The notes beneath the pieces are model-generated. The model saw only the letters and a list, made by a program, of their open reading frames with translations. It searched no databases and had not been told where the DNA came from. This document shows positions 2,805-16,310 of a stretch of DNA of 27,150 nucleotides, in pieces. Source of the DNA: a virus; IMG/VR virus record IMGVR_UViG_3300047469_000106, positions 1 to 27,150 of that record; one strand, given 5' to 3'. Numbering within the stretch: position 1 is the stretch's first letter; every line of letters starts with the position of its first letter. A program made the translations under genes and the position numbers.

Positions 2805-2840
2805 TGGTTCTACTTTAGAACCATAATGGCGCTGATTCAA
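2805..2840 (-). promoter_or_regulatory. Minus-strand promoter with palindromic -10 region
   Basis: On the minus strand TTGAAT (2835-2840) and TAAAGT (2812-2817) are 17 bases apart, fitting a sigma70 promoter for the 2778-1569 operon. The -10 lies inside the 8-3-8 inverted repeat TGGTTCTA-CTT-TAGAACCA (2805-2823). The inner 17 bases match elements at 13304, 15786 and 16294. Confidence 0.65.
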
Positions 2841-2900
2841 TATCATAACCACAAAAAACACGAAATAAAGCAATGAATAGGCGAATGGCATACAAGCAAA

Positions 2901-3002
2901 GGCGAAATTATGTTAGGGTGCGTTCTGTTTTAGGCAGTCAGTATTGGCAGTCCGTCGACCGCCAAGTTGGTTGGCCGTGCAATGGCGAAATGGTGCTAGG
3001 GT
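2901..3002 (+). promoter_or_regulatory. Two direct repeats upstream of the early operon
   Basis: GGCGAAATnnTGYTAGGGT occurs at 2901-2919 and 2984-3002, 83 bases apart, in the noncoding gap before the first plus-strand early gene. TGYTAGGGT could be an extended -10, but no good -35 is seen at normal spacing. The rest of the 274-base gap (2779-3052) holds the minus promoter and a small CAGGC/GCCTG hairpin near 3014-3028. Confidence 0.45.
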
Positions 3003-3052
3003 TTGCAGTGTCTCAGGCATTCCGCCTGGGCTTCTGAACGTGAGGGAATACC

Positions 3053-3505
3053 ATGGGTCTTTGGGGCGCATTGTTGGGCAATAGCTTCAAGAAAAAATCC
3101 GCCGAAGTTCAGGCTGAAATGGCCAAGAAGGTGAACCGCGATCTTGTTCAAGCGGGCATCTACGGCTGTTTCTACGTGGCGTCGGCTGACGGCGAGTTGG
3201 AAGAGTCAGAAATCAAGAAAACCCAAAAGCTGATCAGCAATGAGCCGCTGATGAAGGGCTTTGGCGCTGAAGTCGGGCAACTGATCACTGAGGCCGAAGG
3301 CTCCTACGTCGACGGCGGTGCGCGCATCATCCAGCGCCGGGCAAAGAAAGAGCTGTCAGACTTGGCGCACGATCCCGAGCAGGCCGACATCGTGATGACC
3401 ATTATCTGCACCGTGGCAGACGAGGGCGGCATCGGTGACGCCGAGCGTCAAGCGCTGACCAACTGCGCCGAATGGATGAACCTGAGCGTCAAGGATTACA
3501 TCTGA
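3053..3505 (+). CDS. TerB-like protein
   Basis: The protein has 150 residues. A TerB-type helical domain with an acidic metal-binding-like loop is visible at residues 45-53 (ADGELEESE) and a second, DEGGIGDAE, near 123-131. The two loops, about 80 residues apart, are the signature of TerB/DjlA-N-like proteins. TerB proteins occur in tellurite and stress-response clusters and also, singly, in many phages, where their role is unknown. The N-terminus (MGLWGALLGNSFKKKS) is a short amphipathic or membrane-associating segment before the domain. The ribosome site is GAGGGAA. It is the first gene of the long early plus operon and directly precedes a 49-residue membrane protein whose ATG starts one base after this stop. 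Confidence 0.88.
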   Translation: MGLWGALLGNSFKKKSAEVQAEMAKKVNRDLVQAGIYGCFYVASADGELEESEIKKTQKLISNEPLMKGFGAEVGQLITEAEGSYVDGGARIIQRRAKKELSDLAHDPEQADIVMTIICTVADEGGIGDAERQALTNCAEWMNLSVKDYI

Positions 3506-3655
3506 ATGCGCGACAAGGTTCGCCAAGTCGCCGCCTTCGGCTTTGCCGGGGGCGTGGTGCTGGTCGACTCGGCCAGTCGCCTGTTGTCGATGTGCTTTGA
3601 CCTGGTACTGGTCGTCCTGCTGTTGATAGTCTTGTTGTACCGCCGTAAACGCTGA
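3506..3655 (+). CDS. Small membrane protein, 49 residues
   Basis: An ATG follows immediately after the TGA of the TerB-like gene and opens a 49-codon frame. The product has a weakly hydrophobic N-terminal stretch (VAAFGFAGGVVLV) and a strong C-terminal membrane segment (FDLVLVVLLLIVLLY) ending in the basic tail RRKR. Tight coupling to the TerB-like gene suggests the two products act together at the membrane. No family is recognised. There is no separate ribosome site, consistent with translational coupling. Confidence 0.7.
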   Translation: MRDKVRQVAAFGFAGGVVLVDSASRLLSMCFDLVLVVLLLIVLLYRRKR

Positions 3656-3808
3656 TCCCGCCCAGTGCCCGCCCGTGCGGGAAACCCTTATGAGTTAGGT
3701 ATGCCACTAGTACAATGGATGGCTGAGCAATGGGCGTTGCTCATTGAGCACGGCCTGATCAAACCTGAACACCGACCTGTAAACAAATCATTGAGAGGCA
3801 ATCCGGTA

Positions 3809-4369
3809 ATGAATGAACCGTGGAATAACGACGTGACGAGCTATAGGGCTCGCCTGATGGAAATGGTGCCGAGCGATCAAGCCCCGTTCGCCGAGTTTGA
3901 ATTGAGGATGTTGCTGACGACCCTCGAAACCGACCACCTGCGCGACATCCACACCAACTGGCGGCCGATCGCCGACGAGCGCAACAAGCTGCGCGCCGAG
4001 CTGATCGCGCTGGCAAATCCGGCACCGACACCAGCGGCTGAACCGGCCGAAAGCCGCCGAGGCGCACGCACCAAGGCGGAATTGCTGCAAAAGCAACTGG
4101 ACGAGCTACAGAAGAAGTACGAGGAACTTGAAAAGGCGCCGGTCAAGAGTGGGAACGAAGACGACAGCCCGCGTTTCAAAGCGCTGAGTCTTGAATACAA
4201 GAGCTTGGAGCGTAAGCACGCGGGCCTGCGCGAGCGCTACGACGTGGTAGTGGAAGAAAAAACCGACGTGCAATCGGAACTGGCCGTGCTTCAGTTGGCC
4301 CATAAAAAACTGCAAGCGGACTGTGACGACCTGTTGAATGACAGCCGCCCGGTACGGGAGCGCGCATGA
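3809..4369 (+). CDS. Coiled-coil early protein
   Basis: The protein has 186 residues from ATG 3809, chosen because GAGAGGCAATCCGGTA precedes it, nearly identical to the leader of the gene starting at 2778. An in-frame ATG at 3701 would add 36 residues (MPLVQWMAEQW...) and cannot be excluded. The N-terminal half is helical (YRARLMEMVPSDQAPFAEFELRMLL). After a proline/alanine linker, roughly residues 85-180 form long charged heptads (AELLQKQLDELQKKYEELE and later) typical of coiled coil. It has no enzymatic motif. Its stop overlaps the ATG of the methyltransferase-like gene (ATGA), so the two are coupled. A scaffold or partner role is a guess. Confidence 0.8.
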   Translation: MNEPWNNDVTSYRARLMEMVPSDQAPFAEFELRMLLTTLETDHLRDIHTNWRPIADERNKLRAELIALANPAPTPAAEPAESRRGARTKAELLQKQLDELQKKYEELEKAPVKSGNEDDSPRFKALSLEYKSLERKHAGLRERYDVVVEEKTDVQSELAVLQLAHKKLQADCDDLLNDSRPVRERA

Positions 4370-5049
4370 ACGGCGCCTCTATCGTAAAGCTTGACCCGCA
4401 CGTACAAGCGCGCCTCGATGCGTTTTGCTTGGACAATGGCGTGCTGCAAGTGGTCCACGCGGACTTCTATCGGCAGTTCGACCAGGAACAACTGTCCGTG
4501 TTTGGCCACCGGCACGCAGCCTACGTGCTGCCGACCTGGGAACTGATCACCAAGTTGGACGAGCTGATCAAAGAAGTCAGCCCGAGCCGGTCGGCTATCG
4601 AAATCGGCGCCGGTAACGGCCTGCTGGGCATGGCGCTGGGCATTCCTTGCACGGACAACCGCATGCAGGAACGCCCCGAAATCATCGACATCTACGCGAC
4701 CACGGGCCAGCCGACCATCACCTACGGCGAAAACGTACAGAAGCTGGACGCGCTGGAAGCGGTGAAGCACTGGCGGCCCGAGGTGGTCGTCGCGGCGTGG
4801 GTCACGCACCTGTACAACCCAAACGAATCGCACCGTGGCGGCAATATGTTTGGCGTCGATGAAGTGCTCCTGCTGAGCAAGATCAAGCGCTACATATTCG
4901 TCGGCAATGTTGGCCCTCACCACCTTAAACCCCTGTTCGATCAGTGCCAGAAGTTCACCACCATCGAGCCGCTAGGCCTGTTTTCCCGAGCGCGCAACCC
5001 GGACAGCAACGTCATTTGGGTGTGGGACAACCCGGACTACGCGCCATGA
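4366..5049 (+). CDS. SAM-dependent methyltransferase-like protein
   Basis: The protein has 227 residues. The glycine-rich motif EIGAGNG at residues 79-85 follows a hydrophobic strand (SAIEIGAG) and is followed by GMALGIPCTDNRM, as in motif I of class I methyltransferases. Later strands VVVAAWVTH (about 144) and IKRYIFVGNVG (about 178) would complete the Rossmann sheet. No DPPY/NPPY motif is present, so an N6-adenine or N4-cytosine DNA methylase is unlikely; the substrate is unknown. The gene lies in a run of ATGA-overlapping early genes beside a membrane protein and an acetyltransferase-like protein. Host or phage protein modification, or evasion of host defence, are possibilities but not shown. 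Confidence 0.8.
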   Translation: MNGASIVKLDPHVQARLDAFCLDNGVLQVVHADFYRQFDQEQLSVFGHRHAAYVLPTWELITKLDELIKEVSPSRSAIEIGAGNGLLGMALGIPCTDNRMQERPEIIDIYATTGQPTITYGENVQKLDALEAVKHWRPEVVVAAWVTHLYNPNESHRGGNMFGVDEVLLLSKIKRYIFVGNVGPHHLKPLFDQCQKFTTIEPLGLFSRARNPDSNVIWVWDNPDYAP

Positions 5050-5339
5050 ACCTCGCCAAGTACGTGAGCTGGGACACGCTTATTTCAACCGCTGGGGGCT
5101 TGGTGGCGGGTATCTCTATTGGTGCTGGATACGGCTGGCTAGGTGGCTGCTGGGCGTTTACGGGGGGGCAGTACCTGATCCACAACTTCCTGGTCCTGAA
5201 CCGGATTGAGCGCAATCAACAGGAACTGCTGCTGCGCCTGAAAATACACGACAGCTTGGACACCCTGGTGAACAAGCTGGAAGCCCTACGCAAAGAGGCC
5301 GAGCTGAACAATGAGCATCAACATAAGCCTGATCGTTGA
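5046..5339 (+). CDS. Small membrane protein with cytoplasmic coiled coil
   Basis: The protein has 97 residues starting at ATG 5046, whose ATGA overlaps the stop of the methyltransferase-like gene. Residues 10-45 contain one or two glycine-rich membrane segments (ISTAGGLVAGISIGAGYGWLG and WAFTGGQYLIHNFLVL). Residues 55-90 are charged heptads (RNQQELLLRLKIHDS, LVNKLEALRKEAEL). This is the general plan of phage holin-like or membrane-anchor proteins, but its place among early genes argues against lysis. The last 29 bases overlap the following acetyltransferase-like gene. No family is recognised. Confidence 0.78.
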   Translation: MNLAKYVSWDTLISTAGGLVAGISIGAGYGWLGGCWAFTGGQYLIHNFLVLNRIERNQQELLLRLKIHDSLDTLVNKLEALRKEAELNNEHQHKPDR

Positions 5340-5691
5340 ACAGCTTCACGCGCTGGCCTCGGACCACAAGCACGGCGAGCTGGTGCGCAAACACTTGTAC
5401 GCGCCGGACATCCACCTGTACGTGCGCCTCAGTCCGCGCTATTGCGGCGAGGGCAAGCGCTTGGAGTGCCTGGTGCTGGCCGACATCACCATCGCCGGCC
5501 CGAAACAACGGCAAGGCCTGTTCACCCGCTTGCTGCGCCGGCTGGAGCACGAAGTCCCGGCACTCGGCTTGCAGGCACTGGTGGTCGAGAACATCGGCAA
5601 CGAGCACCTGCGCGCTTACCTGGAACGCATCGGCTACCAGTCGACCGGCTGGGGCGAGCAAACCGTCTACAAGGAGAGCCCTTATGAATGA
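5311..5691 (+). CDS. GNAT-like N-acetyltransferase
   Basis: The protein has 126 residues. The order of elements fits a small GNAT fold: strand LECLVLADITIA (51-62), an acetyl-CoA-binding turn close to the Q/RxxGxG/A consensus (KQRQGLF, 65-71), helix TRLLRRLEHEV, strand LQALVVENI, and the closing NEHLRAYLERIGYQ motif typical of GNAT C-termini. It should transfer an acetyl group from acetyl-CoA to an amine; the substrate is unknown. The G-x-G/A position is replaced by G-L-F, so activity is not assured. It overlaps the upstream membrane-protein gene by 29 bases and sits two genes from a methyltransferase-like protein. Confidence 0.82.
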   Translation: MSINISLIVEQLHALASDHKHGELVRKHLYAPDIHLYVRLSPRYCGEGKRLECLVLADITIAGPKQRQGLFTRLLRRLEHEVPALGLQALVVENIGNEHLRAYLERIGYQSTGWGEQTVYKESPYE

Positions 5692-6043
5692 GCTACCGGA
5701 AGCGTGGAAGCCGCGCTATTGGATGCTGGACGGGCACACGCCTGTCGGCACGCAAGACCTGTATGCGTGGGGTGAGTTCATGCAAGGCGGAAAAAGGGCG
5801 GTGGGTAAGGCCCACGACCCCGAGCGCGAAATCCTTGTGTCCACCATCTTCCTTGGCCTCGATCACGGCTATGACGGTGGCCCGCCAGTGCTGTTTGAAA
5901 CCATGATCTTCGGCGGCCCGCACGACGACTATCAGAAACGCTATTGCACCTGGGATGAAGCCGAGCGTGGCCACCAACTGGCGTGCGAACTGGCGGGAGT
6001 CACCCCCTTCAACGAGAGCAACAAGGAGAATTCGTATGGATGA
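5684..6043 (+). CDS. Conserved phage hypothetical protein
   Basis: The protein has 119 residues from ATG 5684, preceded by AAGGAGAG. The pattern WMLDGHTPV, then LVSTIFLGLDHGY, then PPVLFETMIFGG and a late RYCTWDEAERGH belongs to a small protein family widespread in tailed phages of proteobacteria. The histidine, aspartate and glutamate in conserved positions could bind a ligand or metal, but no activity is known. It overlaps the previous gene by eight bases and the next by eight, so it is part of the same translationally coupled operon. Confidence 0.85.
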   Translation: MNELPEAWKPRYWMLDGHTPVGTQDLYAWGEFMQGGKRAVGKAHDPEREILVSTIFLGLDHGYDGGPPVLFETMIFGGPHDDYQKRYCTWDEAERGHQLACELAGVTPFNESNKENSYG

Positions 6044-6260
6044 GCGCACTTATGCCGCAATGGAGCAAGAGCGCAACGACTTGCGACTTGAAGTCGAGGA
6101 ATGCACGGCGCTGAACGACAAACTGGCCGGTCTTCTGCGTGAGGTGGCCTTTGAGCTGAAAGGCGCACCAGGGCCACTGAGCCGTCACAGCTTCCATGAC
6201 CTGCCTGAGCTGGTGGCCGCGCTCAAGCGGGAGAACTACGAGCTGCGCACCCGTGACTAA
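6036..6260 (+). CDS. Small coiled-coil protein
   Basis: The protein has 74 residues from ATG 6036, with AAGGAG upstream. Heptad-rich helices flank a short middle segment (MEQERNDLRLEVEECTALNDKLAGLL and LVAALKRENYELRTRD). Such short coiled-coil proteins with NDRL/REN motifs are common filler genes in phage early operons, and their role is unknown. The start overlaps the upstream stop by eight bases. The next gene begins inside its last codons. Confidence 0.78.
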   Translation: MDERTYAAMEQERNDLRLEVEECTALNDKLAGLLREVAFELKGAPGPLSRHSFHDLPELVAALKRENYELRTRD

Positions 6261-6597
6261 GCGCGATCCCTACATCGAGGCGGCGCTGAGCGATCCCGAC
6301 AACCGCTTTATGGCGTGGCGGCAACTGGACGACGGCACCTACATCGCTTTGACACGCCTGATCACCACCATCGGCCTGTGCATCGACGTTGACCGCACGG
6401 GTTACGCCCAGCGCTATTGCTTCAAAGACCCGACCACAGCCTTCGGCGAATACATGGACCTGAAAACCCGCGACGACGTGCCGAGCGGCTGGGTGGCCCG
6501 TAGGCCGGAACTACCGGAAGACATCGAAGCCAAGTCAAAGCCGGGCTATGACCCGAGCCAATTTTGGCCAAAGGAGACAGACGATGACGCAGTATGA
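6253..6597 (+). CDS. Conserved phage hypothetical protein
   Basis: The protein has 114 residues from GTG 6253, the only plausible start between the end of the previous gene and the conserved region; no strong ribosome site is visible, so coupling is likely. The pattern is FMAWRQLDDGTYIALTRL, then LCIDVDRTGYAQRYCF, then DDVPSGWVARRPELPE. It is a short mixed alpha/beta protein that resembles conserved phage early proteins without known function. No catalytic motif is recognised. Confidence 0.75.
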   Translation: MTKRDPYIEAALSDPDNRFMAWRQLDDGTYIALTRLITTIGLCIDVDRTGYAQRYCFKDPTTAFGEYMDLKTRDDVPSGWVARRPELPEDIEAKSKPGYDPSQFWPKETDDDAV

Positions 6598-6799
6598 CCG
6601 CACGACCGCCATCAGCATCAGCATGGCCAAGAACGACGACACGCTGTTTGAAGACACGTTCAACACGCTCTACGAAGCCAACCTGGAAAATGCCAGCCGG
6701 CAGGAGTTGTGCCTTGTGCTGGGCATGGCAGTCGGTACTATGGTCCGTCTACGTGCGCGGATTAAGGAACTGGAGCAGCAACTGAATGGCCAACCATGA
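6584..6799 (+). CDS. Small hypothetical protein
   Basis: The protein has 71 residues from ATG 6584, with a strong ribosome site AAGGAGACAG. It is largely helical, ending in the heptad-like segment VRLRARIKELEQQLNGQP. It overlaps its neighbours on both sides (14 bases each). No family is recognised; it probably multimerises through the C-terminal helix. Confidence 0.75.
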   Translation: MTQYDRTTAISISMAKNDDTLFEDTFNTLYEANLENASRQELCLVLGMAVGTMVRLRARIKELEQQLNGQP

Positions 6800-7013
6800 C
6801 CCGCTGATTATGTGGACGGTCTACCACTTGCGCACCACGGGGAAGTACGTCGCGAGGCGCTGGGCTGTGACGGGAGCGTCGGAGCCGGTGCTGACCGGGG
6901 ATGCGTACATGGCCGATACGCTCGAAGCGATCAGGGCCAGGCTCCCACAGGGTTTGTTTTGCCAGCCACGCTACGAGCACGACGACCCGAGCATTGTCGA
7001 GACGTGGTTCTAA
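6786..7013 (+). CDS. Small hypothetical protein
   Basis: The protein has 75 residues. It is mixed strand and helix with aromatic residues (WTVYHLRTTGKYVARRW, TLEAIRARLP). The start overlaps the previous gene by 14 bases. The stop codon TAA merges with the first copy of the AATCGTAATTACG repeat. No function is recognised. Confidence 0.72.
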   Translation: MANHDPLIMWTVYHLRTTGKYVARRWAVTGASEPVLTGDAYMADTLEAIRARLPQGLFCQPRYEHDDPSIVETWF

Positions 7014-7047
7014 TCGTAATTACGATTTACTAATTAATAATTAATAG
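7012..7047. repeat. AT-rich palindromic repeat, copy 1
   Basis: A perfect 16-base palindrome AATCGTAATTACGATT (7012-7027) starts inside the stop codon of the upstream gene. It is followed by TTTACTAATTAATAATTAATAG. The block is strikingly AT-rich in a GC-rich phage and recurs at 7495-7537. It may be an operator, promoter region or recombination remnant. Confidence 0.75.
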
Positions 7048-7060
7048 AGAGGCGACGGGA

Positions 7061-7495
7061 ATGCCAGACATCAAAAGCACCCTGATCATCGGCGCCAAGC
7101 CATCGGATAAAACGCTGTTGAAAGCGCAGAAAGCGTTGGGACTGGCACCCGATCAGTCAATGGAGTTCATGGTGTTTGAGGTCGAATACGACCACGACAC
7201 CTATTACTGCTGCTGGTCGGGTGGCTATCTGGAAAAAGGCGAGCCGTACATGACCCCTATTGGTCAGGCCGCCTTTGAAGCCTTGGCCGACCTCCCGATG
7301 GGCGTCCAGAAGAAGGTAATCATTCAGGAGCTTCGCCTGGGCGAAACGCCACTGGAAGACAAGATCAAGTTCGCACTGACCCGAGCCCCGGTCGGCTCCA
7401 AGATTTGTTTCTTCGGTGACATGGCCGGCGAGCTGGACGGGCATATGTCGCCCATCTTCAACCTGCAACCGAAGCCGAAGAACATTGCGCATTAA
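7061..7495 (+). CDS. Hypothetical protein in a repeat-flanked cassette
   Basis: The protein has 144 residues with ribosome site AGAGG. It opens with a strand-rich stretch (STLIIGAKPSDKTLLKAQKALGL), then an aromatic acidic block (EFMVFEVEYDHDTYYCCWSG), and ends with KICFFGDMAGELDGHMSPIFN. No known family is recognised. Codon use is less GC-rich than in its neighbours. Both edges carry the same AT-rich element (7012-7047 and 7495-7537), each starting at a stop codon, so the gene may have been gained as a unit or the repeats may serve as promoters for this gene and the next. Confidence 0.8.
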   Translation: MPDIKSTLIIGAKPSDKTLLKAQKALGLAPDQSMEFMVFEVEYDHDTYYCCWSGGYLEKGEPYMTPIGQAAFEALADLPMGVQKKVIIQELRLGETPLEDKIKFALTRAPVGSKICFFGDMAGELDGHMSPIFNLQPKPKNIAH

Positions 7496-7537
7496 ATCGT
7501 AATTACGTTTTACTATTTACCAATTATTAAATAATAG
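7495..7537. repeat. AT-rich palindromic repeat, copy 2
   Basis: AATCGTAATTACG (7495-7507) contains the 10-base palindrome CGTAATTACG and is followed by TTTTACTATTTACC and an AT-rich tail ending in AATAATAG. It aligns with copy 1 over almost its whole length and likewise begins within the upstream stop codon. Confidence 0.75.
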
Positions 7538-7550
7538 CAGTGAGCCATCC

Positions 7551-7943
7551 ATGTACGAGCAACCCCAGCACGACGACCCTGTAGCCCGCGAAAAACTGCT
7601 GCGCGCCCGTGGCGAGATAGCGGAAATCATCAAGCGCTACGACATTGCGGCTTTTGTCGTCATGCACGCCGCCCCGCATGCCAGCGAAGTCATGATTGAA
7701 CTGAGCCCGAGCTATTCCGTGGTCACGTTGAAAGAGGGAGTGGCGCGCATCATATCGAAGCTGGCCGATTACAACGGCGACAAGGATGCGCAGCGGTATG
7801 ACATGGCCGCCAGTGCCAATATGGCCAGCTCGATGTTTGAGCTGATGGCACACACGACGATGCTCCTGGGCGATCTGGCGCAGCGGCTGGACGAGATAAC
7901 CGGCTCGACGCACACCGAAATGACGCACATCAAACCGAACTGA
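7551..7943 (+). CDS. Conserved phage hypothetical protein
   Basis: The protein has 130 residues. Helical N-terminus (AREKLLRARGEIAEIIKRYDI), then AAFVVMHAAPHASEVMIELSPSYSVV and a long helical C-terminus ending RLDEITGSTHTEMTH. This arrangement is seen in a small family of phage early proteins of unknown function. Only a weak ribosome site (GTGAG) precedes the ATG. It follows AT-rich repeat copy 2, which may supply its promoter. Confidence 0.78.
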   Translation: MYEQPQHDDPVAREKLLRARGEIAEIIKRYDIAAFVVMHAAPHASEVMIELSPSYSVVTLKEGVARIISKLADYNGDKDAQRYDMAASANMASSMFELMAHTTMLLGDLAQRLDEITGSTHTEMTHIKPN

Positions 7944-7955
7944 GCAAGGACTGCC

Positions 7956-8342
7956 ATGCAACTGACCCGCAACCAGCGCCGGCAGATGGAGAAGAACAAC
8001 GCCGAGTGGCCGCTGTTCTTGCAGAAGGTGCCGCCCGAGCTGTGGCCCAAGAGCCAGCATCAACCGCTGGAAGTCTGGCGATCGCGGGGCTTTCTGGTAC
8101 AGGTCTGCGCCGAGCCGAACGGCTATGAGCGCATGAGCGTGTGCCGGACCACGCACGCCGGCCCGAGCTGGGACGAGCTGATCACCTGGGAAGAGCTGAT
8201 GGTGCTCAAGCGCGAATGCGGCCGGGGCGACAAAGACGCGCTGGAGGTGTACCCGGCTGACCAGGACATCGTGAACGTGTCGAACATGCGCCACCTGTTC
8301 TTTCCGCCCGAACCCGTCAGCTTCAAGTGGAGCCGCACATGA
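7956..8342 (+). CDS. Conserved phage protein (DUF7694-like)
   Basis: The protein has 128 residues from ATG 7956, with AAGGA upstream. The features VWRSRGFLVQVC, a central SWDELITWEELMVLKRECG and the closing EVYPADQDIVNVSNMRHLFF are characteristic of a widespread phage family in which a short beta domain precedes a conserved YPxDxDxVNVxNMRHL motif. The biochemical role is unknown. Its stop overlaps the start of the ribbon-helix-helix gene (ATGA). Confidence 0.82.
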   Translation: MQLTRNQRRQMEKNNAEWPLFLQKVPPELWPKSQHQPLEVWRSRGFLVQVCAEPNGYERMSVCRTTHAGPSWDELITWEELMVLKRECGRGDKDALEVYPADQDIVNVSNMRHLFFPPEPVSFKWSRT

Positions 8343-8569
8343 TCATCAAGACCGATTCGCGCACAGCGGACAAGTTCGTTATTCGCCTGCCCAACGGCAT
8401 GCGCGACAAAGTAGATTACGCATCGTGGAATGCGTACATGAGCATGAACTCATTTATCGTGACGGCCATTGCCGAGAAGCTGGACCGCGATCAGCAGCAG
8501 CAAATTTTGCTCGCCGTGCTCGTTGAAGCGGCGAAGAAGGCAACCCTTGAGGAAAAAGCCGATGGCTAA
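8339..8569 (+). CDS. Arc-like ribbon-helix-helix DNA-binding protein
   Basis: The protein has 76 residues from ATG 8339, overlapping the upstream stop. Residues 10-50 match the Arc/MetJ fold: strand DKFVIRLP, helix NGMRDKVDYASWNA, helix MSMNSFIVTAIAEKLD. These proteins bind DNA as dimers through the paired strand, usually as repressors. A C-terminal helix (QQQQILLAVLVEAAKKA) probably mediates oligomer contacts. It is the best candidate in the early operon for a transcriptional regulator, and palindromic operator-like sites elsewhere in the window could be its targets; that link is untested. Confidence 0.85.
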   Translation: MIIKTDSRTADKFVIRLPNGMRDKVDYASWNAYMSMNSFIVTAIAEKLDRDQQQQILLAVLVEAAKKATLEEKADG

Positions 8570-9304: not shown

Positions 9305-9322
9305 CTTTGCCTGCAATTCGCC

Positions 9323-9711: not shown

Positions 9712-10265
9712 ACGATTCCAGACTGAGGCGACTACTGGAGGGGCAAAGTGCCACGGCCCGCAAATTGTACGAGTTCGTGCCGTATCGCGAAGCCTGGGTT
9801 GAGGGCGACATCGCCAAAGCCGCGCACAACGGCCATGTACGTGTCGGTCTGCACGTCATTCGCAAATGCCTGCTGGACATGAAAGACGCCGGCCTGATCA
9901 AAGAGACGCAGCGGCACTATTACCAGCGTGTGTCCGTGACTAAGGCCAAGAAGCAACCAACCCATACCAACGAACCATCCGCCAATGAGGCCATCATGTC
10001 GAAACCAACCGCGCCCGCAGTGCCCCCAACCCTCATCCGTAACGAAGTATCCGCAGCACCCGTAGTCGATTCGATGGACCTGCTGGCCGGTGTCAGCACA
10101 GAGCTGACCAAGCTGGGGGTTGAGTTCATCGGTCGCATCAAAGCGCTGGCCGGTCGCGTGGATGAGGTCGCGCTACAGGTTGAAGCGCAGCGCGAGGCCG
10201 ACATTGCCAAAATGGCCAAGGTCAACCAGTTGCAAGCCTTGATGAAAGACCTGGGTGGCCAATGA
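9708..10265 (+). CDS. Winged-helix-like protein with C-terminal coiled coil
   Basis: The protein has 185 residues from ATG 9708. Residues 10-80 look like a winged helix: LYEFVPYREAWVEGDIAKAA, then a recognition-like helix LHVIRKCLLDMKDAGLI, then a wing ETQRHYYQRVSV. A polar proline-rich linker follows. Residues 125-185 are heptad-rich (STELTKLGVEFIGRIKALAG, then a second helix), so the protein probably oligomerises. It could bind DNA, but the target is unknown. The gene overlaps both neighbours by four bases. Confidence 0.75.
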   Translation: MNDSRLRRLLEGQSATARKLYEFVPYREAWVEGDIAKAAHNGHVRVGLHVIRKCLLDMKDAGLIKETQRHYYQRVSVTKAKKQPTHTNEPSANEAIMSKPTAPAVPPTLIRNEVSAAPVVDSMDLLAGVSTELTKLGVEFIGRIKALAGRVDEVALQVEAQREADIAKMAKVNQLQALMKDLGGQ

Positions 10266-10447
10266 ACGAGCCCCGGCAACTGGCGACGATCGCCGTGCGC
10301 GTGGCTGAAGGCTTCCAGGTCGTGGGGCAAGATCGCGATGGCACGGTACGCCTGAGCAAGGGCGCCGATTCGCGCTTGGTGTTTGCTGACGGCACTGAGA
10401 AGCGTGGCGGCCACTACTTTGTGGTAAACAGGGGAATGGTTCGCTAA
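10262..10447 (+). CDS. Small beta-rich hypothetical protein
   Basis: The protein has 61 residues starting in the ATGA overlap with the previous stop. Alternating hydrophobic residues (LATIAVRVAEGFQVVGQDRDG, then SRLVFADGTEKRGGHYFVV) suggest a small beta barrel or sheet. No family is recognised. It ends the operon; the next 396 bases contain no convincing gene. Confidence 0.7.
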   Translation: MNEPRQLATIAVRVAEGFQVVGQDRDGTVRLSKGADSRLVFADGTEKRGGHYFVVNRGMVR

Positions 10448-10790
10448 GCTAACCAAGCCAACTGCAAACACAGACGCAACTACCTCCTTCGGTTGCCAGC
10501 CCGCACACGCGGAACCATCGTCTTCATCGGAAAGCTCAATGAACCTCAGTTGATCGCGAGGAATTGACGGGATGGGTAGCAGCGCCTCCGCAAGAGGCAT
10601 GTCCATACGTCCAGGTTTGTCCCTGATTGAGCTTTACCGATGCAGATGAATGCGCAGGCTGATGCGCTTTGGACGGCACGCCCTTAATGAGGTCCGCGCC
10701 ATCCATGGAATAGAGACTTGGGCTATAGCAAGCCATGGAAAGCCGGGGATCAGCGCCGGCCATCCGCATCAAAGCAGCTAAACAGGCATT
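10448..10790. other. Structured stretch without a convincing gene; possible RNA gene or decayed ORF
   Basis: No plus-strand gene with a ribosome site is present. Small hairpins are visible: GCCTC/GAGGC at 10584-10598 and GCCGG/CCGGC at 10742-10760. A terminator follows at 10791. On the minus strand two overlapping frames (10772-10536 and 10606 leftward, e.g. MDMPLAEALLPIPSIPRDQ) read like protein, but neither has a good start signal and one runs into a real plus-strand gene. This could be a small RNA locus or a decayed gene. No tRNA cloverleaf was found. Confidence 0.35.
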
Positions 10791-10826: not shown

Positions 10827-10843
10827 GTACTCAGGAGAGGCAT

Positions 10844-11230: not shown

Positions 11231-11235
11231 CGACT

Positions 11236-11260: not shown

Positions 11261-11262
11261 TT

Positions 11263-11463
11263 TTAGCGTGCCAAGCATTCCAGCGCGAACTGCACCATGT
11301 ACGGCGCCGCCCGGTGTTTGTCACCATCGGCCAAGTAGTAACGCATCATGCGAGCCGACACGCCGATCCGCTCAGCGGCCTGTACCTGTGTGAGCCCCGC
11401 TTGATCCAGCAGGCCGCGCAGGTAAGCGGGGCAGGGGTTATGCAGGGCAATGTCTGGTTTCAT
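11263..11463 (-). CDS. Small helix-turn-helix (XRE-type) DNA-binding protein
   Basis: The protein has 66 residues. A Cro/CI-type helix-turn-helix is visible at about residues 15-50: LRGLLDQAGLTQVQAAERIG then VSARMMRYYLADGDKHRAA. The LTQxQAAxxIGVSxRMxRYY pattern is typical of phage and plasmid regulators. It is the last gene of the minus operon and overlaps the upstream stop by four bases. By inference it could bind one of the palindromes in this window, for instance the operator at 13233-13251 in its own promoter, giving autoregulation. There is no protease or dimerisation domain, so it is Cro-like rather than CI-like. Confidence 0.87.
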   Translation of the reverse strand: MKPDIALHNPCPAYLRGLLDQAGLTQVQAAERIGVSARMMRYYLADGDKHRAAPYMVQFALECLAR

Positions 11464-11957
11464 GCGAGGTTATCCCACAGCAGGATTTCGACGTCGCCAG
11501 CCGCGATGCCCAAGACATGCACATCCTCGATGGCAAAGCCCCATTCGGCCGCGCAGTCCGCACGCGCTACGTCGATAGCCGCATCGCCGTCCATGGCTTT
11601 GACGGTAGAAACCCATATCGTGCCTTTGCCGTTGGTTTGCTGGCAGAACGCCGTGTACGTGCGCAATTGGTAATTATTAATTGGTAATTCGGAATCTTCG
11701 AGGAATACCGGATTTTCAATCGCCTTGCGCGTCCGTTCGCCCTCGCCATCCCAACCGCCTTCTTCATCAATGAAGGCCGAATGGTCGAACTGGTAGGCAT
11801 CATCAACATTGAACGTGCCGTTAATTTCCAATGGGCAGCACACCAGATAGTCATCCAGTAAGAGCGCCACGTTGCCCTCGCCAATGACCAGGGCTTTGCC
11901 GGGGTTCTGTTTAAGTAGGCGCTCGTAAGCGGCCAGCACTTCTTTGTAAGTCAGCAT
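11460..11957 (-). CDS. Hypothetical protein
   Basis: The protein has 165 residues. N-terminal helix (YKEVLAAYERLLKQNPG), then a strand-rich acidic middle (LLLDDYLVCCPLEING, FIDEEGGWDGEGERTRKAIE), and a C-terminal region with TIWVSTVKAMDGDAAIDVAR and DVHVLGIAAGDVEILLW. The last part resembles the small alpha/beta domain seen in several phage proteins that end in a conserved VLGIAxGDVEILLW-like strand. An AT-rich direct repeat (AATTGGTAATT at 11665-11675 and 11679-11689, plus strand) lies inside the gene and codes for part of INNYQL. The ribosome site is weak. The function is unknown. Confidence 0.8.
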   Translation of the reverse strand: MLTYKEVLAAYERLLKQNPGKALVIGEGNVALLLDDYLVCCPLEINGTFNVDDAYQFDHSAFIDEEGGWDGEGERTRKAIENPVFLEDSELPINNYQLRTYTAFCQQTNGKGTIWVSTVKAMDGDAAIDVARADCAAEWGFAIEDVHVLGIAAGDVEILLWDNLA

Positions 11958-11959
11958 GG

Positions 11960-12163
11960 TCAGTTACTCGGTTCAATGGTGAGTTGGCCACAACGGTTGC
12001 CGTTCATGTCTTTGATAGGAAAGCCGTCGCCGTCGTTGCCACGGTAGCCCGCGTCGAGTCGGTCAGCAGTCCAGCGCAGGATGCGAGCAAACTCGGCCGC
12101 CGCGTCATCTTCAAAGGCCGCGTTGTCGTTGCTGCTGAACTCGATGGTGATTTTGTCGCTCAT
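11960..12163 (-). CDS. Small acidic hypothetical protein
   Basis: The protein has 67 residues with ACGGAG upstream of the start at 12163. Pattern: KITIEFSSNDNAAFEDD, then EFARILRWTADRLDAGYRG, then FPIKDMNGNRCGQLTIE, which is beta-alpha-beta. Similar small phage proteins with an ILRxxADRLxxG helix and a closing DxNGNxxGxxxIE strand are known without function. It begins within the overlap with the upstream gene and ends two bases before the next start. Confidence 0.8.
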   Translation of the reverse strand: MSDKITIEFSSNDNAAFEDDAAAEFARILRWTADRLDAGYRGNDGDGFPIKDMNGNRCGQLTIEPSN

Positions 12164-12381
12164 GATGGCAACTCCGTGGAGGCGTGTTCCAGCAACGCGG
12201 CCAGTTGCCCGGCCGGCATGGTGGAGAGCGCGGTGCGCGTGCGGTAGCCGGCGTTGCCCTCAAACTCAACCACGCTGATATACGAGGGATCAACGCTACG
12301 GTGTGCCTGGTAATCACCAACACTGGTGACGTACTCAGGGTTAACCCATAGGGTGGAGCCGGGAATGTTGATCAGTCTCAT
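12160..12381 (-). CDS. Small hypothetical protein
   Basis: The protein has 73 residues. The minus-strand leader AGAGGCATCATC precedes the ATG and is nearly the same as those before 2778 and 13178. Its first half is strand-rich (RLINIPGSTLWVNPEYVTSV, ISVVEFEG) and it ends in a helix (AGQLAALLEHASTELPS). This layout resembles small phage or host regulatory-site-binding proteins, but no function is recognised. The 64-base gap upstream (12382-12445) contains only an AGCGCC/GGCGCT hairpin at 12416-12437. Confidence 0.78.
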   Translation of the reverse strand: MRLINIPGSTLWVNPEYVTSVGDYQAHRSVDPSYISVVEFEGNAGYRTRTALSTMPAGQLAALLEHASTELPS

Positions 12382-12445
12382 GATGATGCCTCTCTTGTGG
12401 GGGGTGATTCAGCACAGCGCCCGCAACCGCAGGCGCTCGACTTAA

Positions 12446-12727
12446 TCATCCGCGACTGTTGCCGATATGGCCCACGCAGACGTTGCACACACAGTCAGCC
12501 GGGGCAAACTCGCGATGTTCAGCGTTCACCTTCAAGCCAACGATTTCATAGGCCATGCACACAGCGTCATCGGCGTCGGCAGTGCGGTAATCGGCCTCGA
12601 TGGCCCACGATGGCCAAACGTGCCATTCATTTGTTGCGTGTATCCAGGCTACGCACACAAACAAGCCATAAGGTGCGCCCGCAGGGTAGACGAAAAAGCG
12701 GTTCCATTTGGATTTGACGAGTTTCAT
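12446..12727 (-). CDS. Hypothetical protein with possible metal site
   Basis: The protein has 93 residues starting at MKLVKSKWNRF; GGAG lies nine bases upstream, while a longer start at 12742 lacks a site. Aromatic strand-rich N-terminal half (FFVYPAGAPYGLFVCVAW), then DYRTADADDAVCMAYEIVG and a CVCNVC cluster near the end. The three cysteines could bind metal together with nearby histidines. No family is recognised. The first codons share a 17-base DNA stretch with the next gene upstream (start of both proteins reads MKLVK). Confidence 0.75.
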   Translation of the reverse strand: MKLVKSKWNRFFVYPAGAPYGLFVCVAWIHATNEWHVWPSWAIEADYRTADADDAVCMAYEIVGLKVNAEHREFAPADCVCNVCVGHIGNSRG

Positions 12728-12885
12728 GGTTGCGCACTCCACAGGACACGGGCAGTCATGACAGCGGTGAGCAGGACGGACAGCAACATCCGGCCAGCCG
12801 ATTCAGGGTTTTGCAGGATCGACATCGAGGCGATGGTGCAAATGGTGATGAACAGCAGGACAAAGGCGAATTTGACGAGTTTCAT
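12724..12885 (-). CDS. Small two-span membrane protein, 53 residues
   Basis: The frame from ATG 12885 to TGA 12724 encodes a 53-residue protein: MKLVK, then a hydrophobic segment (FAFVLLFITICTIASMSIL), a short polar turn (QNPESAGR) and a second hydrophobic segment (MLLSVLLTAVMTARVLW). Two short spans with the turn outside fit a hairpin membrane protein. GAGGA lies upstream, and both ends overlap or nearly touch the neighbouring genes, which supports expression. A holin-like plan is possible, but its place in a regulatory operon makes lysis unlikely. Confidence 0.72.
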   Translation of the reverse strand: MKLVKFAFVLLFITICTIASMSILQNPESAGRMLLSVLLTAVMTARVLWSAQP

Positions 12886-12896
12886 GGCGGTCATCC

Positions 12897-13178
12897 TCAC
12901 TCAGCCAGTTCGCGGTAATAGGCGTGCGCGTCGTGGAAGTCAGCGGTAGACCAAGTGCCCTCATAACCCCCGGCATCATAGGCCGCCATGATGGTTTTCT
13001 GATCGAATGAGCCCCAAGCGGTGGCACGGCCGTATATGCCCCGGTCCAGATCGGCGAAGGCAAAGCGGTAGCTTGGCATGTGTTCATCGGCATCGATGCT
13101 CAGCAGCTTGGCGACGATACGCTGGCCTTCACGGGAGTAGCCACGGCCGGTGTTGAAAGCGATTGCTTGGATGGTCAT
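12897..13178 (-). CDS. Hypothetical protein, first gene of minus operon
   Basis: The protein has 93 residues with AGAGGCATC before the start. Pattern: TIQAIAFNTGRGYSREGQRI, SYRFAFADLDRGIYG, then TIMAAYDAGGYEG and a final helix DFHDAHAYYRELAE. The YxxxGQRI ... F.D.DRGIxG ... MxAYDxGxY motifs recur in small phage proteins of unknown role, probably a small alpha/beta fold. It is transcribed from the operator-containing promoter at 13227-13255, with a CCCCTC/GAGGGG hairpin in the leader. Confidence 0.8.
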   Translation of the reverse strand: MTIQAIAFNTGRGYSREGQRIVAKLLSIDADEHMPSYRFAFADLDRGIYGRATAWGSFDQKTIMAAYDAGGYEGTWSTADFHDAHAYYRELAE

Positions 13179-13226
13179 TTTTGATGCCTCTGTAGCCTTG
13201 CCCCTCGGAATGAGGGGGGAGTTGTC

Positions 13227-13255
13227 AATATACTAGGCAATGATTGCCTAGACAA
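13227..13255 (-). promoter_or_regulatory. Minus promoter with perfect operator in the spacer
   Basis: On the minus strand TTGTCT (13250-13255) and TATATT (13227-13232) are 17 bases apart. Overlapping the spacer and the edge of the -35 is the 8-3-8 inverted repeat CTAGGCAA-TGA-TTGCCTAG (13233-13251). A repressor there would block polymerase. It drives the operon 13178 to 11263. Confidence 0.8.
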
Positions 13256-13284
13256 GACAAAAACAGGTCCGTTTGTCTCTCGTG

Positions 13285-13320
13285 TTGCGATTAGCTGATG
13301 TATGGTTTGATAATAGAACC
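13285..13320 (+). promoter_or_regulatory. Plus promoter for the packaging genes, with 17-base element
   Basis: TTGCGA (13285-13290), 18 bases, then GATAAT (13309-13314) gives a plausible sigma70 promoter before the small terminase. The -10 sits in GGTTTGATAATAGAACC (13304-13320), one of four copies of this element. Confidence 0.7.
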
Positions 13321-13349
13321 TACCGTTATGCACTCGCACCGAGGCCGCC

Positions 13350-13892
13350 ATGACCACGAAGACCGCGACCAAGGCCAAACCCAAGGCCAAGGCACCAAGG
13401 AAGCCTAAAGCCACGCCCAGCGTCATGGGGCGCCCAACCAAGTACACACCCGAACTTTGCGACCTCATCTGTACCCAACTGGCTGCCGGCATGTCGTTGC
13501 GTACCGTGTGCGAACCGAAAAGCATGCCATCGGCGGTGTCGGTCTTTGCCTGGATGCGCAAGTATCCCGACTTTCTTAAGCAGTACGCGCGCGCGAAGGT
13601 TGAGAGCGCCGATGCCCTGGTTGAAGAGATGCTGGACATTGCCGACGACGGCCGCAATGACTGGATGGAAGTGTTCGACAAGGAAGGCGAATGCGTGGGT
13701 TACAAGGTCAACGGCGAGCACGTTCAGCGCTCAAAGCTGCGTGTCGATACGCGCAAATGGGCGGCCTCGAAGCTGTCACCGAAGAAGTACGGCGACAAGC
13801 TGGACTTGAACCACGACGTGAAGGAAGGCGGCGTGTTGCACGAATTGTTTGCCCAACTGTGCCCCAAAACCTTTGGACCGGTGCTGGAATGA
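13350..13892 (+). CDS. terS: Terminase small subunit, Sf6-type
   Basis: The protein has 180 residues. After a lysine/alanine-rich N-terminal tail (TKAKPKAKAPRKPKATPS), residues 27-75 carry the DNA-recognition helices seen in Sf6 gp1-like subunits (GRPTKYTPELCDLICTQLAA, then SVFAWMRKYPDFLKQYARA). Residues 80-150 (ALVEEMLDIADDGRNDWMEV through WAASKLSPKKYGDKLDLNHD) form the oligomer ring and central domain. The subunit recognises the packaging site and controls the large subunit. The start has GAGG upstream. Its stop overlaps the start of a 23-residue leader ORF that precedes the large subunit. Confidence 0.9.
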   Translation: MTTKTATKAKPKAKAPRKPKATPSVMGRPTKYTPELCDLICTQLAAGMSLRTVCEPKSMPSAVSVFAWMRKYPDFLKQYARAKVESADALVEEMLDIADDGRNDWMEVFDKEGECVGYKVNGEHVQRSKLRVDTRKWAASKLSPKKYGDKLDLNHDVKEGGVLHELFAQLCPKTFGPVLE

Positions 13893-13960
13893 GCGCCTAC
13901 GCGAAATCTGAGCAAGTGGCTGGGTGGTTGCCCGCCACTTTTCACGTAGGAGCGCGCTAA
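13889..13960 (+). CDS. 23-residue leader peptide between terminase genes
   Basis: ATG 13889 overlaps the small-terminase stop (ATGA) and opens 23 codons (MSAYAKSEQVAGWLPATF and five more) ending in TAA directly followed by the large-terminase ATG. Almost the whole frame lies inside the hairpin at 13893-13955. Ribosomes translating it would melt the stem and free the next ribosome site. It may instead be a by-product of the stem. Confidence 0.5.
   Translation: MSAYAKSEQVAGWLPATFHVGAR
13893..13955 (+). promoter_or_regulatory. Long hairpin covering the large-terminase ribosome site
   Basis: Inner stem AAGTGGC(T)GGG / CCCGCCACTT (13914-13924 and 13931-13940) with a six-base loop is extended by GCGCCTACG.GA (13893-13904) pairing with TC.CGTAGG..GCGC (13942-13955), with small bulges and one eight-base internal loop. 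The AGGAG ribosome site of terL (13948-13952) is inside the outer stem. It could be a translational switch, a packaging site, or a degraded REP-like element. Confidence 0.7.
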
Positions 13961-15541
13961 ATGGCCGCTGTCATGGCGTTCAAGGCCATCGAGGACATGA
14001 ACATTGACGAGTTCGCGCAGGCGCTGGCCGACCCGCATTGGCGCATGTCGAACCTGTATTACATCCGCACCAAGGACGCCGCGGCTGACGACGACGAGGA
14101 CGAGGACGCCCAAGGCGTGGTGGTGAAGTTCAAGCCGAACCGGGCGCAGAAGGCGTTGATGAGTCGCTTGTGGTATCGCAACCTGATCCTCAAAGCGCGT
14201 CAGTTGGGCTTCACGACCTGGATTCAAATCTACTTTCTCGACGTCGCGCTGTTCACCCCGAACCTCAACCTTGGCGTGCTGGCCCACACGGAGGACGCGG
14301 CCAAGAAGATCTTCAAAAAGATTAAGTTCGCCTACGACCGCTTGCCCCCGGCACTGCGCAAGGCGATGCCATTGACCACCTGCAGCGTGATGGAAATGAC
14401 GCTGGCCAACGGCTCAACCATCCAGGTCGGCACATCGATGCGCGGCGACACCATCCATTATCTGCACGTCAGCGAGTACGGCAAAATCTGTGCGATGTAC
14501 CCGCTACGCGCCGAGGAAATCGTCACGGGTACGTTCCCGGCCGTGCCGGACACCGGGATTATCTTCATTGAGTCGACCGCCGAAGGCCGTGGCGGGGACT
14601 TTCACGACAAGGCCAACCGCGCCGAGGCGTTGCAGGAGCTGGGCGCACCCCTTCGGCCTAAGCAGTTCCGCTTTCACTTCTTTCCGTGGCACGACGAGGC
14701 CGGTTATCAGTGCGACCCGGCCGGCGTGATCATCAGCAAGAAGGAGCACGAATACTTCGACGAGCTGGAGAGCAAGCTGGGCAAGGTCATCAGACTGGAG
14801 CAGCGCGCATGGTGGATCGTCACCCGCGACGAGCTGTTCAGCGGCCAAGATGAACGGATGTGGCAGGAATACCCGTCGACATCCAAAGAAGCCTTCCAGC
14901 AGTCAGCCGAAGGCACCTACTACAAGATGCAATTGGTGGCCGCCCGCAAGCAGAAGCGCATCACCACCGTGCCGTATCACCCCGGCCTGCCGGTCAATAC
15001 GTTCTGGGACATCGGCCACAGCGACGGCTGCGCCATCTGGCTACACCAGCGCGTGGGCCAGCGCGACAACTTCATTGGCTTCATTGAGGGATGGGTTGAG
15101 CCGTACAGCTACTTTGTCGCGGAGCTTCAGAGGACCGGCTACGTGTGGGGCACGCATTACCTACCGCACGACGGCAATCACATCAGGCAGGGCGAGGACG
15201 TCAACAAGAGCCCCAAGCAGATGCTCGAAGACCTGGGCCTACGCCACGTCGAAGTGGTCCCCCGTGTCAGCGAACTACAGCACGGCATTCAGGCCACGCG
15301 GGATGCGTTCAGCAGCTACTGGTTTGACGAGGTGGCGTGCAAAGAAGGCCTGCAACACATCGAGTTGTATCGCAAAGCCTGGAGCGTGCAGACGCAGACA
15401 TGGACCGATCGCCCGTTGAAGGACGGCCACACCGAAGCCGCCGATGCCCTACGGCAACACGCGCAGGGCTACGTCGATCATGGCCCGCAGAAGTCAGCCG
15501 CCAGTGTGCGCGGCACCCGCAAGAGCTGGAGAGTGTCATGA
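13961..15541 (+). CDS. terL: Terminase large subunit
   Basis: The protein has 526 residues: the ATPase and nuclease of the DNA packaging motor at the portal. A non-classical Walker A lies at 78-86 (KARQLGFTT), with the lysine ahead of the loop as in many phage terminases. A Walker B-like strand ends in HVSEYG (169-174) with glutamate 172 as likely catalytic residue, and the coupling motif ESTAEG is at 204-209. The RNase H-like nuclease domain shows D350 (TFWDIGHSDG), D404 (LPHDG) and D495 (EAADAL). Length fits the family. ATG 13961 follows the leader-peptide stop without a gap; the ribosome site AGGAG is about ten bases upstream, inside a hairpin. The stop overlaps the next gene (ATGA). Confidence 0.96.
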   Translation: MAAVMAFKAIEDMNIDEFAQALADPHWRMSNLYYIRTKDAAADDDEDEDAQGVVVKFKPNRAQKALMSRLWYRNLILKARQLGFTTWIQIYFLDVALFTPNLNLGVLAHTEDAAKKIFKKIKFAYDRLPPALRKAMPLTTCSVMEMTLANGSTIQVGTSMRGDTIHYLHVSEYGKICAMYPLRAEEIVTGTFPAVPDTGIIFIESTAEGRGGDFHDKANRAEALQELGAPLRPKQFRFHFFPWHDEAGYQCDPAGVIISKKEHEYFDELESKLGKVIRLEQRAWWIVTRDELFSGQDERMWQEYPSTSKEAFQQSAEGTYYKMQLVAARKQKRITTVPYHPGLPVNTFWDIGHSDGCAIWLHQRVGQRDNFIGFIEGWVEPYSYFVAELQRTGYVWGTHYLPHDGNHIRQGEDVNKSPKQMLEDLGLRHVEVVPRVSELQHGIQATRDAFSSYWFDEVACKEGLQHIELYRKAWSVQTQTWTDRPLKDGHTEAADALRQHAQGYVDHGPQKSAASVRGTRKSWRVS

Positions 15542-15762
15542 CCGCAGAGCAGTTTGTGTATTGGTTGCAGGGGTTCGCCGAGTTGAACGGCGAGCGACCC
15601 ACGCCGGAGCAGTGGAAAGCCATCAACGAGCACCTGCAAACCGTGTTCGTGAAGACGACGCCGGCCTATACGCCGTTTCCTGGCCCCGGCATCCGCACGC
15701 TGGGGTTGCGCCCGAGTTACTGGTTGCCCAACGACCCATCCAGCCCTGTCATTACCTGCTGA
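15538..15762 (+). CDS. Conserved small phage protein
   Basis: The protein has 74 residues starting in the ATGA overlap with the large terminase. The N-terminus EQFVYWLQGFAELNGERPT then PEQWKAINEHLQTVFVK is a short conserved helical pair found in many tailed phages, often near replication or packaging genes; its role is unknown. The C-terminal tail is proline-rich. Its stop codon lies within the stem of the terminator at 15745-15766. Confidence 0.83.
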   Translation: MTAEQFVYWLQGFAELNGERPTPEQWKAINEHLQTVFVKTTPAYTPFPGPGIRTLGLRPSYWLPNDPSSPVITC

Positions 15763-15774
15763 CAGGCCTTTTTG
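15745..15774 (+). terminator. Rho-independent terminator
   Basis: CCTGTCA (15745-15751) and TGACAGG (15760-15766) form a seven-pair stem with an eight-base loop, followed by CCTTTTTG. The stop codon of the upstream gene is part of the right arm. It ends the terminase transcript. Confidence 0.85.
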
Positions 15775-15785
15775 CCGTCACTTGT

Positions 15786-15802
15786 GGTTAGATAATAGAA
15801 CT
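15786..15802 (+). promoter_or_regulatory. 17-base promoter/operator element
   Basis: GGTTAGATAATAGAACT, with GTCACTT-GT immediately upstream, the same arrangement as at 16294. GATAAT would serve as -10, but no -35 is seen at 16-18 bases, suggesting an activator or a different polymerase contact. It lies just after a terminator and before the gene at 15848. Confidence 0.6.
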
Positions 15803-15847
15803 GAGATAGGATTAAGAGCACCACACACAACCTGCTAGAGGTTTTCT

Positions 15848-16255
15848 ATGCCGCTCAGTTACGCATTGCCGACTCAAATCGTCACCGCATGGCCGCAGGA
15901 GCAGGACGGCGAGCCAGGGTATGCCGTGCTGGACATCAACGGCACGAAGAGCTGGAGCCCCAAGGAGGTAGTCGACAAGACGTGGTTGCCCCTCGGTTAC
16001 ATCGATCATCTGGCCCCGCATGAACAACGATTGGTCGCGCACGTCGAGCAGATGGTGCAACGCACGGAGCAACTTGAAGGCTACATGGAGACGCAGCGCT
16101 TCGCCGATCTAGTCGAGGACGACCAAGACCTGATCCACGCGCAGTTCGACATTATGAACGTGTACCTCGGCGTGTTGCGTGAGCGCATCGAGCAGTCGCC
16201 CATCAACGAGAAGGAAGACCAGGACGACGACGATTCGCCCTACGAAGAGGAATGA
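15848..16255 (+). CDS. Paralogue A, crAss001_48-related-like protein
   Basis: The protein has 135 residues with ribosome site AGAGG. N-terminal block: IVTAWPQEQDGEPGYAVLD then SWSPKEVVDKTWLPLG. C-terminal helices: LAPHEQRLVAHVEQMVQR then LEGYMETQ..., IMNVYLGVLRERIE, resembling the small helical crAss001_48-related phage family. It ends in an acidic tail. It is 500 bases upstream of a clear paralogue and has its own terminator and 17-base element, so it may be a moron. The SWSPK block also occurs in other phage proteins. The function is unknown; anti-defence is a speculation. Confidence 0.8.
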   Translation: MPLSYALPTQIVTAWPQEQDGEPGYAVLDINGTKSWSPKEVVDKTWLPLGYIDHLAPHEQRLVAHVEQMVQRTEQLEGYMETQRFADLVEDDQDLIHAQFDIMNVYLGVLRERIEQSPINEKEDQDDDDSPYEEE

Positions 16256-16260
16256 TCCAC

Positions 16261-16284
16261 AAGGCGCCCGTGCGCCTTTTTTTT
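16261..16284 (+). terminator. Rho-independent terminator
   Basis: AGGCGC (16262-16267), loop CCGT, GCGCCT (16272-16277), then a run of eight T residues. It closes the single-gene unit 15848-16255. Confidence 0.92.
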
Positions 16285-16293
16285 GTCACCAGT

Positions 16294-16310
16294 GGTTCGA
16301 TTACAGAACT
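16294..16310 (+). promoter_or_regulatory. 17-base promoter/operator element
   Basis: GGTTCGATTACAGAACT, preceded by GTCACCAGT as at 15786 (GTCACTTGT). It lies ten bases after the terminator T-run and before the gene at 16368. No consensus -35 is present. Confidence 0.58.

Follow-up and report, generated by a model that had tools for sequence, protein, structure and literature searches.

The operators of phage lambda are 17-bp palindromes that stand in tandem and overlap promoter hexamers. Other phage repressors work from many scattered sites: C1 of P1 is a single repressor with 17-bp operators dispersed over the genome (22 reported; PMC8546580), and the L5-type repressor has > 20 sites genome-wide, in promoters and short gaps (PMC9283540). 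Among the Bcep22-like podophages, stable, superinfection-resistant lysogens are known for JC1 (PMC9144972), no lysogens were obtained with CSP3, which carries both a CI gene and the sites described below (PMC10269572), and the lysogens of others are unstable or were not found (PMC9144972, PMC10269572). Here we analysed a 27,150-bp virus record (IMGVR_UViG_3300047469_000106), referred to as the window, whose terL-portal region matches ~61-kb Bcep22-type podophages (BcepIL02, DC1, Parlo, Itty13, Skulduggery and others). A 17-bp palindrome with the consensus GGTTCGATnATCGAACC recurs in it, and sequence comparison indicates that this element is very probably an operator for the CI-like repressor of this phage, the homologue of BcepIL02 gp08, DC1 gp8 and JC1 gp7. 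The closest relative found, IMG/VR contig G001 (L127; 61,279 bp), has a TerL 95% identical to that of the window. tRNA and Rfam searches of the window gave no match.

A palindromic element in the window and its relatives

The first-pass annotation of the window, made from the sequence alone, had listed four copies of a 17-base element, beginning at 2806, 13304, 15786 and 16294. All four are present and genuine, but the list was incomplete: it lacked a site at 10438-10454 and a pair at 20583-20599 and 20603-20619 (Table 1). Further, weaker partner sites occur at 2834 and 16315. When three mismatches at most were tolerated, the originally described pattern gave 8 matches (some of them one palindrome counted on both strands) versus 0.40 expected in dinucleotide shuffles, none of which reached 8. 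Our main matrix, which was symmetrised and learned from seven relatives with the window left out of training, found 7 sites of at least 12 bits where 0.38 were expected. A second matrix, built from five Burkholderia phages only, served as an independent test of the window: its top six positions were the four listed copies plus 10438 and 20583, with scores of 14.2-20.9, and the seventh, 16315, the 21-bp partner of 16294, followed at 9.1. Nor was the element as frequent inside genes as between them, since six of the eight sites of at least 10 bits fall in gaps, which make up 9.3% of the window (P = 1.5e-5). Each of the six strong loci is matched by a site at the orthologous position in G001, although with differing letters.

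A position-matrix scan of relatives revealed that the element recurs genome-wide in Bcep22/Lessievirus-like podophages. These ~61-kb genomes hold ~10-20 sites each, mainly in gene gaps and promoters and often as tandem pairs, and in 13 IMG/VR records of this group (BcepIL02 and DC1 included) the pattern is enriched over a backward control (0-2 per strand). In the annotated BcepIL02 genome, 16 of the 20 sites fall in non-coding DNA, which accounts for 5.1% (P = 8e-18); they precede, among others, the integrase, recE, divergent regulator gp09, pagP, terS, capsid, acetyltransferase, darB-like and holin genes. In the Pseudomonas-type phages, coding-like sequence matches the motif when it is reversed, which makes the reversed-sequence null unreliable for low scores; we relied instead on the dinucleotide shuffles, the gap tests and the Burkholderia-only matrix. 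A collection-wide pattern search also retrieved G001, with unrelated contigs predominating among the matches listed.

The -10 hexamer occupies positions 6-11 of the palindrome. An internal -10 had been claimed for all four listed copies; it is good at 13304 and 15786 (GATAAT) and fair at 2806 on the minus strand (TAAAGT), but poor at 16294 on the plus strand (GATTAC), where the G001 counterpart reads GATAAT. The two -35 boxes called credible, TTGAAT at 2806 (17-bp spacer) and TTGCGA at 13304 (18-bp spacer), are both there. Location at a transcription start fits 2806, 13304 and the pair 20583/20603, and is only plausible for 15786 and 16294, which have no visible -35. In G001, the counterpart of the 2806 operator lies at 58347, the copy aligned with 2834 (GGTTCAATAGTAGAACC) is the stronger one, and the place of 13304 reads GGTTCGATAATCAAACC. 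The site at 10438 (GGTTCGCTAAGCTAACC) corresponds to a palindromic GGTTAGCTAGTCTAACC in G001, read in the same direction.

Across the scanned genomes, 34 tandem pairs are 19-21 bp apart; the reversed null yields no pair with such a spacing. The capsid promoter of the window, TTGCAA-17-GATAAT (20585-20613), is built on such a pair, with the -35 in the upstream copy (GGTTGCAA...) and the -10 in the downstream copy, so that repeating the element at 20 bp leaves a spacer of exactly 17 bp, as in sigma-70 promoters. This tandem arrangement is kept in relatives that have CI. A TTG stands at the right distance from 24% of the oriented sites with a -10, and at wrong distances from 2-13%. A ~17-bp palindromic site overlapping promoter hexamers is also the form taken by the operators of lambda-type repressors.

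Co-occurrence and covariation with a CI-like repressor

All 13 site-rich IMG/VR records encode the CI-like protein (BcepIL02 gp08; its counterparts DC1 gp8 and JC1 gp7 are annotated as repressors). No CI homologue was found in Skulduggery, PBC5, G007 or G009, and the same four lack site enrichment; enrichment is confined to phages with the CI-like gene or, in LASTA, its remnant. The predicted structure of the protein combines an N-terminal helical helix-turn-helix (HTH) domain with a C-terminal beta domain, and its best matches among solved structures are lambda repressors. Sites also lie beside the CI gene itself: at 461-477 before CI in G001, at 6790 and 6094 in BcepIL02, and at 9904 and 10590 in a Caballeronia prophage. 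These data strongly support the suggestion that one phage factor acts on all copies. Between repressor and activator, which the annotation had left undecided, they favour a repressor, because the palindromes lie over the -10 and, in many cases, over the -35 as well, and because enrichment is seen only with the CI-like gene or its remnant. The factor acting on the window sites is likely to be encoded outside the 27-kb fragment.

The two positions that seem equivalent to the Ser/Lys cleavage dyad in lambda CI are variable in these repressors, being Ser or Thr at the first and Lys, Arg or Ser at the second (alignment A1, by eye; the G001 CI is L184:501-1061). Judging from these residues, RecA-dependent self-cleavage may have been lost in many of them.

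The operator sequence also varies with the repressor. We counted the bases at palindrome positions 2 and 16 after masking both in the matrix. G was dominant in 13 of 13 phages whose predicted recognition helix starts with H-S-Q-L-S (272 G, 38 T half-sites), and T in six phages of the other type (Itty13, Parlo, PEp14, Stean, ZX1 and LASTA; 39 G, 114 T half-sites). The predicted helix (31-38 in the DC1 model) starts with His in the first class and with Pro in the second. Class is not determined by host genus, because Itty13, a phage of Pseudomonas aeruginosa, and enterobacterial phages both belong to the T class. The Caballeronia prophage L286, which lay outside the training set, combines an H-S-Q helix with GGTT arms (12 G to 1 T), and its sites flank the CI gene. 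Sites thus co-occur with the repressor gene and track its recognition helix, within a single evolutionary event.

Natural knock-outs point the same way. When the capsid promoters of 24 phages were aligned, those with an HSQ- or P-type CI retained palindromic arms of the matching class. In the CI-less Skulduggery, G007 and G009, a -10-like hexamer persists (AATAAT, the ACAATC region and ATATAAT) without arms, and the PBC5 capsid promoter has nothing of the palindrome. That CI-less phages keep the promoter hexamer and lack the arms indicates that the operator is separable from the promoter. LASTA (NC_054965.1, 50073-50201) retains only a 43-residue C-terminal piece of CI, together with ZX1-like operators and capsid promoter; its ZX1-like promoter sequence is as expected of a recent repressor loss.

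We propose the following mechanism. Operator copies are spread genome-wide, and a repressor dimer on one of them would shield the -10 of a promoter read by host sigma-70. Many promoters have a second copy 19-21 bp from the first (on the same face, some two helical turns on), which would place another dimer over the -35. With both hexamers covered, RNA polymerase could not bind. In the prophage state, packaging, capsid, lysis, recombination and cargo genes would be silenced directly, and not through early promoters alone. A further proposal concerns a genome-wide CI regulon of a large podophage group in which key promoters, capsid included, consist of a tandem operator pair, one copy with the -35 and the other with the -10. 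Within it, the His-to-Pro change at the helix start would have been matched across operators genome-wide and have created two immunity classes, predicted to differ in their arms (GGTT or GTTT) and to be independent of host genus; for this proposal as a whole we judge the chances to be even.

Several observations weigh against assigning the element to CI. The window fragment itself contains no CI gene, and its phage would encode one by analogy with the close relative G001; circularising G001 would place CI just left of the window, but the contig ends do not overlap and the frame is interrupted, so that this position is not established. Sites are few in G012, which carries an HSQ-type CI; its capsid promoter does contain one. 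The switch in helix and operator occupies one branch of the CI tree, and the covariation therefore counts as one event. Most matrix counts cover genomes that also trained the matrix, the exceptions being the window, L286 and the P-type phages. Finally, no -35 was seen at 15786 and 16294.

Individual loci and alternative readings

These last two copies fall in the terL-portal interval, where each comes immediately after a terminator-like hairpin and ahead of one of two paralogous small genes, an operator-headed arrangement that was found in the window and G001 only. The units look like cargo cassettes, each with its own terminator and operator, and the operator following the terminator would head its gene as part of a self-contained unit. 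Both copies had been described as sharing GTCACnnGT upstream and lacking a -35. This holds for the window; in G001, however, GTAAC replaces GTCAC at the second copy, and the shared motif can be explained by common descent because both copies precede paralogous genes.

At these two sites, bound CI might act as a roadblock to elongating polymerase, in the manner of a stoperator, and not on a promoter at all. Such action is known for L5-type repressors (PMC9283540), and it would suit sites that have no -35 and that, in a gap among the late genes, come directly after a terminator-like hairpin. However, each site heads its own gene, GATAAT is present inside 15786 and both G001 copies, and the palindrome contrasts with the asymmetric, orientation-dependent stoperators of L5. 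We hold the roadblock to be the less likely reading and take 15786 and 16294 to be probably promoters, weak ones if so.

For the sites as a whole, it is improbable that the binder is a phage activator that turns on late genes from promoters lacking a good -35. The missing -35 and common GTCACnnGT at 15786 and 16294 would be in keeping with activation, as would the late functions of terS and capsid. Against this, the palindrome sits on the -10 and often the -35, which is not the usual placement for an activator; the terS and capsid promoters possess both hexamers; integrase and recE carry sites too; GTCAC is not preserved in G001; and the capsid -10 is retained without arms in CI-less phages.

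Improbable, too, is another phage regulator as main binder, whether the gp09-type protein (RsaL-like and divergent from CI) or one of two proteins of the window, XRE-type (11263-11463) and Arc-like (8339-8569). Cro and CI share operators in lambda, gp09 adjoins CI, and both XRE and Arc-like proteins belong to DNA-binding families. Yet Skulduggery has a gp09 homologue and no sites, by which we rejected gp09 as sole binder, and no homologue was found in the site-bearing G001, G002, G004 and G006. The XRE-type and Arc-like proteins, which the first-pass annotation had put forward for binding tests, are poor candidates: among 24 other phage genomes they have homologues in G001 only, and the operator occurs in 13 phages of this class. 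These sites might also have a second, Cro-like binder. That the repeat is a mere recurrent host promoter sequence, or chance, can be dismissed as highly improbable: sigma-70 hexamers do lie inside it and several copies are ordinary promoters, but shuffles yield only ~0.4 sites, the conserved arms outside the hexamers are missing where CI is missing, and the second base tracks the repressor helix, with the Pseudomonas phage Itty13 in the T class.

With CI as the favoured binder, the predicted operators and their presumed targets are collected in Table 1.

Table 1. Predicted operators, promoters and adjoining features of the window
Feature	Position	Strand	Remarks
Predicted operator GGTTCTAAAGTAGAACC	2806..2822	-	17.5 bits; covers -10 TAAAGT of promoter of minus-strand genes 2778->1569
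Weaker partner palindrome	2834..2850	-	10.8 bits; carries -35 TTGAAT
Additional predicted operator GGTTCGCTAAGCTAACC	10438..10454		17.5 bits; third best with Burkholderia-only matrix; overlaps end of open reading frame 10262-10447
terS promoter TTGCGA-18-GATAAT	13285..13314	+	
Predicted operator GGTTTGATAATAGAACC over terS -10	13304..13320	+	22.0 bits, best site of the window
Terminase small subunit gene, presumed target	13350..13892	+	PHROG 1482, E 1.7e-45
Terminator-like hairpin	15745..15766	+	directly before operator 15786
Predicted operator GGTTAGATAATAGAACT	15786..15802	+	17.0 bits; -10-like GATAAT, no -35; counterpart in G001
Small cargo-like gene	15848..16255	+	unassigned function; paralogue of 16368-16736
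Intrinsic terminator-like hairpin AAGGCGCCCGTGCGCCTT, then TTTTTT	16261..16278	+	directly before operator 16294
Predicted operator GGTTCGATTACAGAACT	16294..16310	+	16.7 bits; weak partner 16315-16331, 21 bp on
Second cargo-like gene	16368..16736	+	32% identity to paralogue 15848-16255 (tblastn)
Upstream capsid-promoter operator (predicted) GGTTGCAAAAGCTAACC	20583..20599	+	14.6 bits; contains -35 TTGCAA
Downstream capsid-promoter operator (predicted) AGATCGATAATCAGACC	20603..20619	+	contains -10 GATAAT; 20 bp from upstream copy
Major capsid protein gene, presumed target	20680..21777	+	PHROG 334, E 4.4e-120

Three further elements adjoin these loci. A different perfect palindrome, CTAGGCAATGATTGCCTAG, occupies 13233-13251, with the same arms and another centre in G001. 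It sits on the minus-strand promoter TTGTCT-17-TATATT (13255-13227) of the operon 13178->11263, in which the XRE-type gene is last, and is probably that operon's own operator. Right after operator 10438, ~60 non-coding bases (10455-10517) are almost unchanged in G001 although their surroundings have diverged; they contain ACCTCCTT, which resembles the 16S anti-Shine-Dalgarno end, and a short part recurs in G002, G004, G006 and G011. Rfam and tRNA searches of these bases gave no match. In the capsid 5' leader, GCGCAnGAnnTGC (20626-20642) is conserved in relatives whether CI is present or absent. It could form a 4-pair hairpin with a GA-containing loop, for which no compensatory changes were seen among relatives, and it adjoins a phage csrA gene (20376-20573); from its sequence, it is a possible CsrA/RsmA target.

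Comparison with known repressor systems

Operators and promoters are unmentioned in the JC1 and CSP3 papers (PMC9144972, PMC10269572); the founding Bcep22/BcepIL02 paper lay outside this comparison, and the novelty of the sites is provisional. The repressor proposed here is the CI-like repressor of the Bcep22-like/Lessievirus phages (BcepIL02 gp08, DC1 gp8, JC1 gp7). The analysis supplies a probable operator, regulon and binder for lysogeny control in these podophages. Co-immunity between phages would become predictable from sequence. The group also offers a natural record in which repressor specificity and many sites changed together, and in which some phages keep the promoter but lack both repressor and operators.

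Most likely, the system is a dispersed-operator repressor regulon like those of P1 C1 and L5, but with a lambda-type repressor and with palindromic, tandem, promoter-embedding operators. BcepIL02 has the many sites in promoters of several modules that characterize dispersed-operator systems; their operators, however, are asymmetric, and because the site described here is palindromic, we regard it as resembling the P1 and L5 systems in its working without classing it as a member of either. P1 shares with it the single repressor and the scattered 17-bp operators, the comparison being one of operators. P1 operators are asymmetric (ATTGCTCTAATAAATTT), whereas the present element is palindromic, encloses the promoter hexamers and often occurs twice at a 20-bp interval. 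The sites of L5 are likewise spread through promoters and short gaps, but they are 13-bp, asymmetric, monomer-bound and orientation-dependent, as opposed to the 17-bp palindromes here. The predicted structure of the protein, with HTH and beta-rich C-terminal domains, is closest to those of lambda repressor. The lambda repressor, in contrast, works at two early control regions, while here 10-20 sites extend to the packaging, capsid and lysis promoters.

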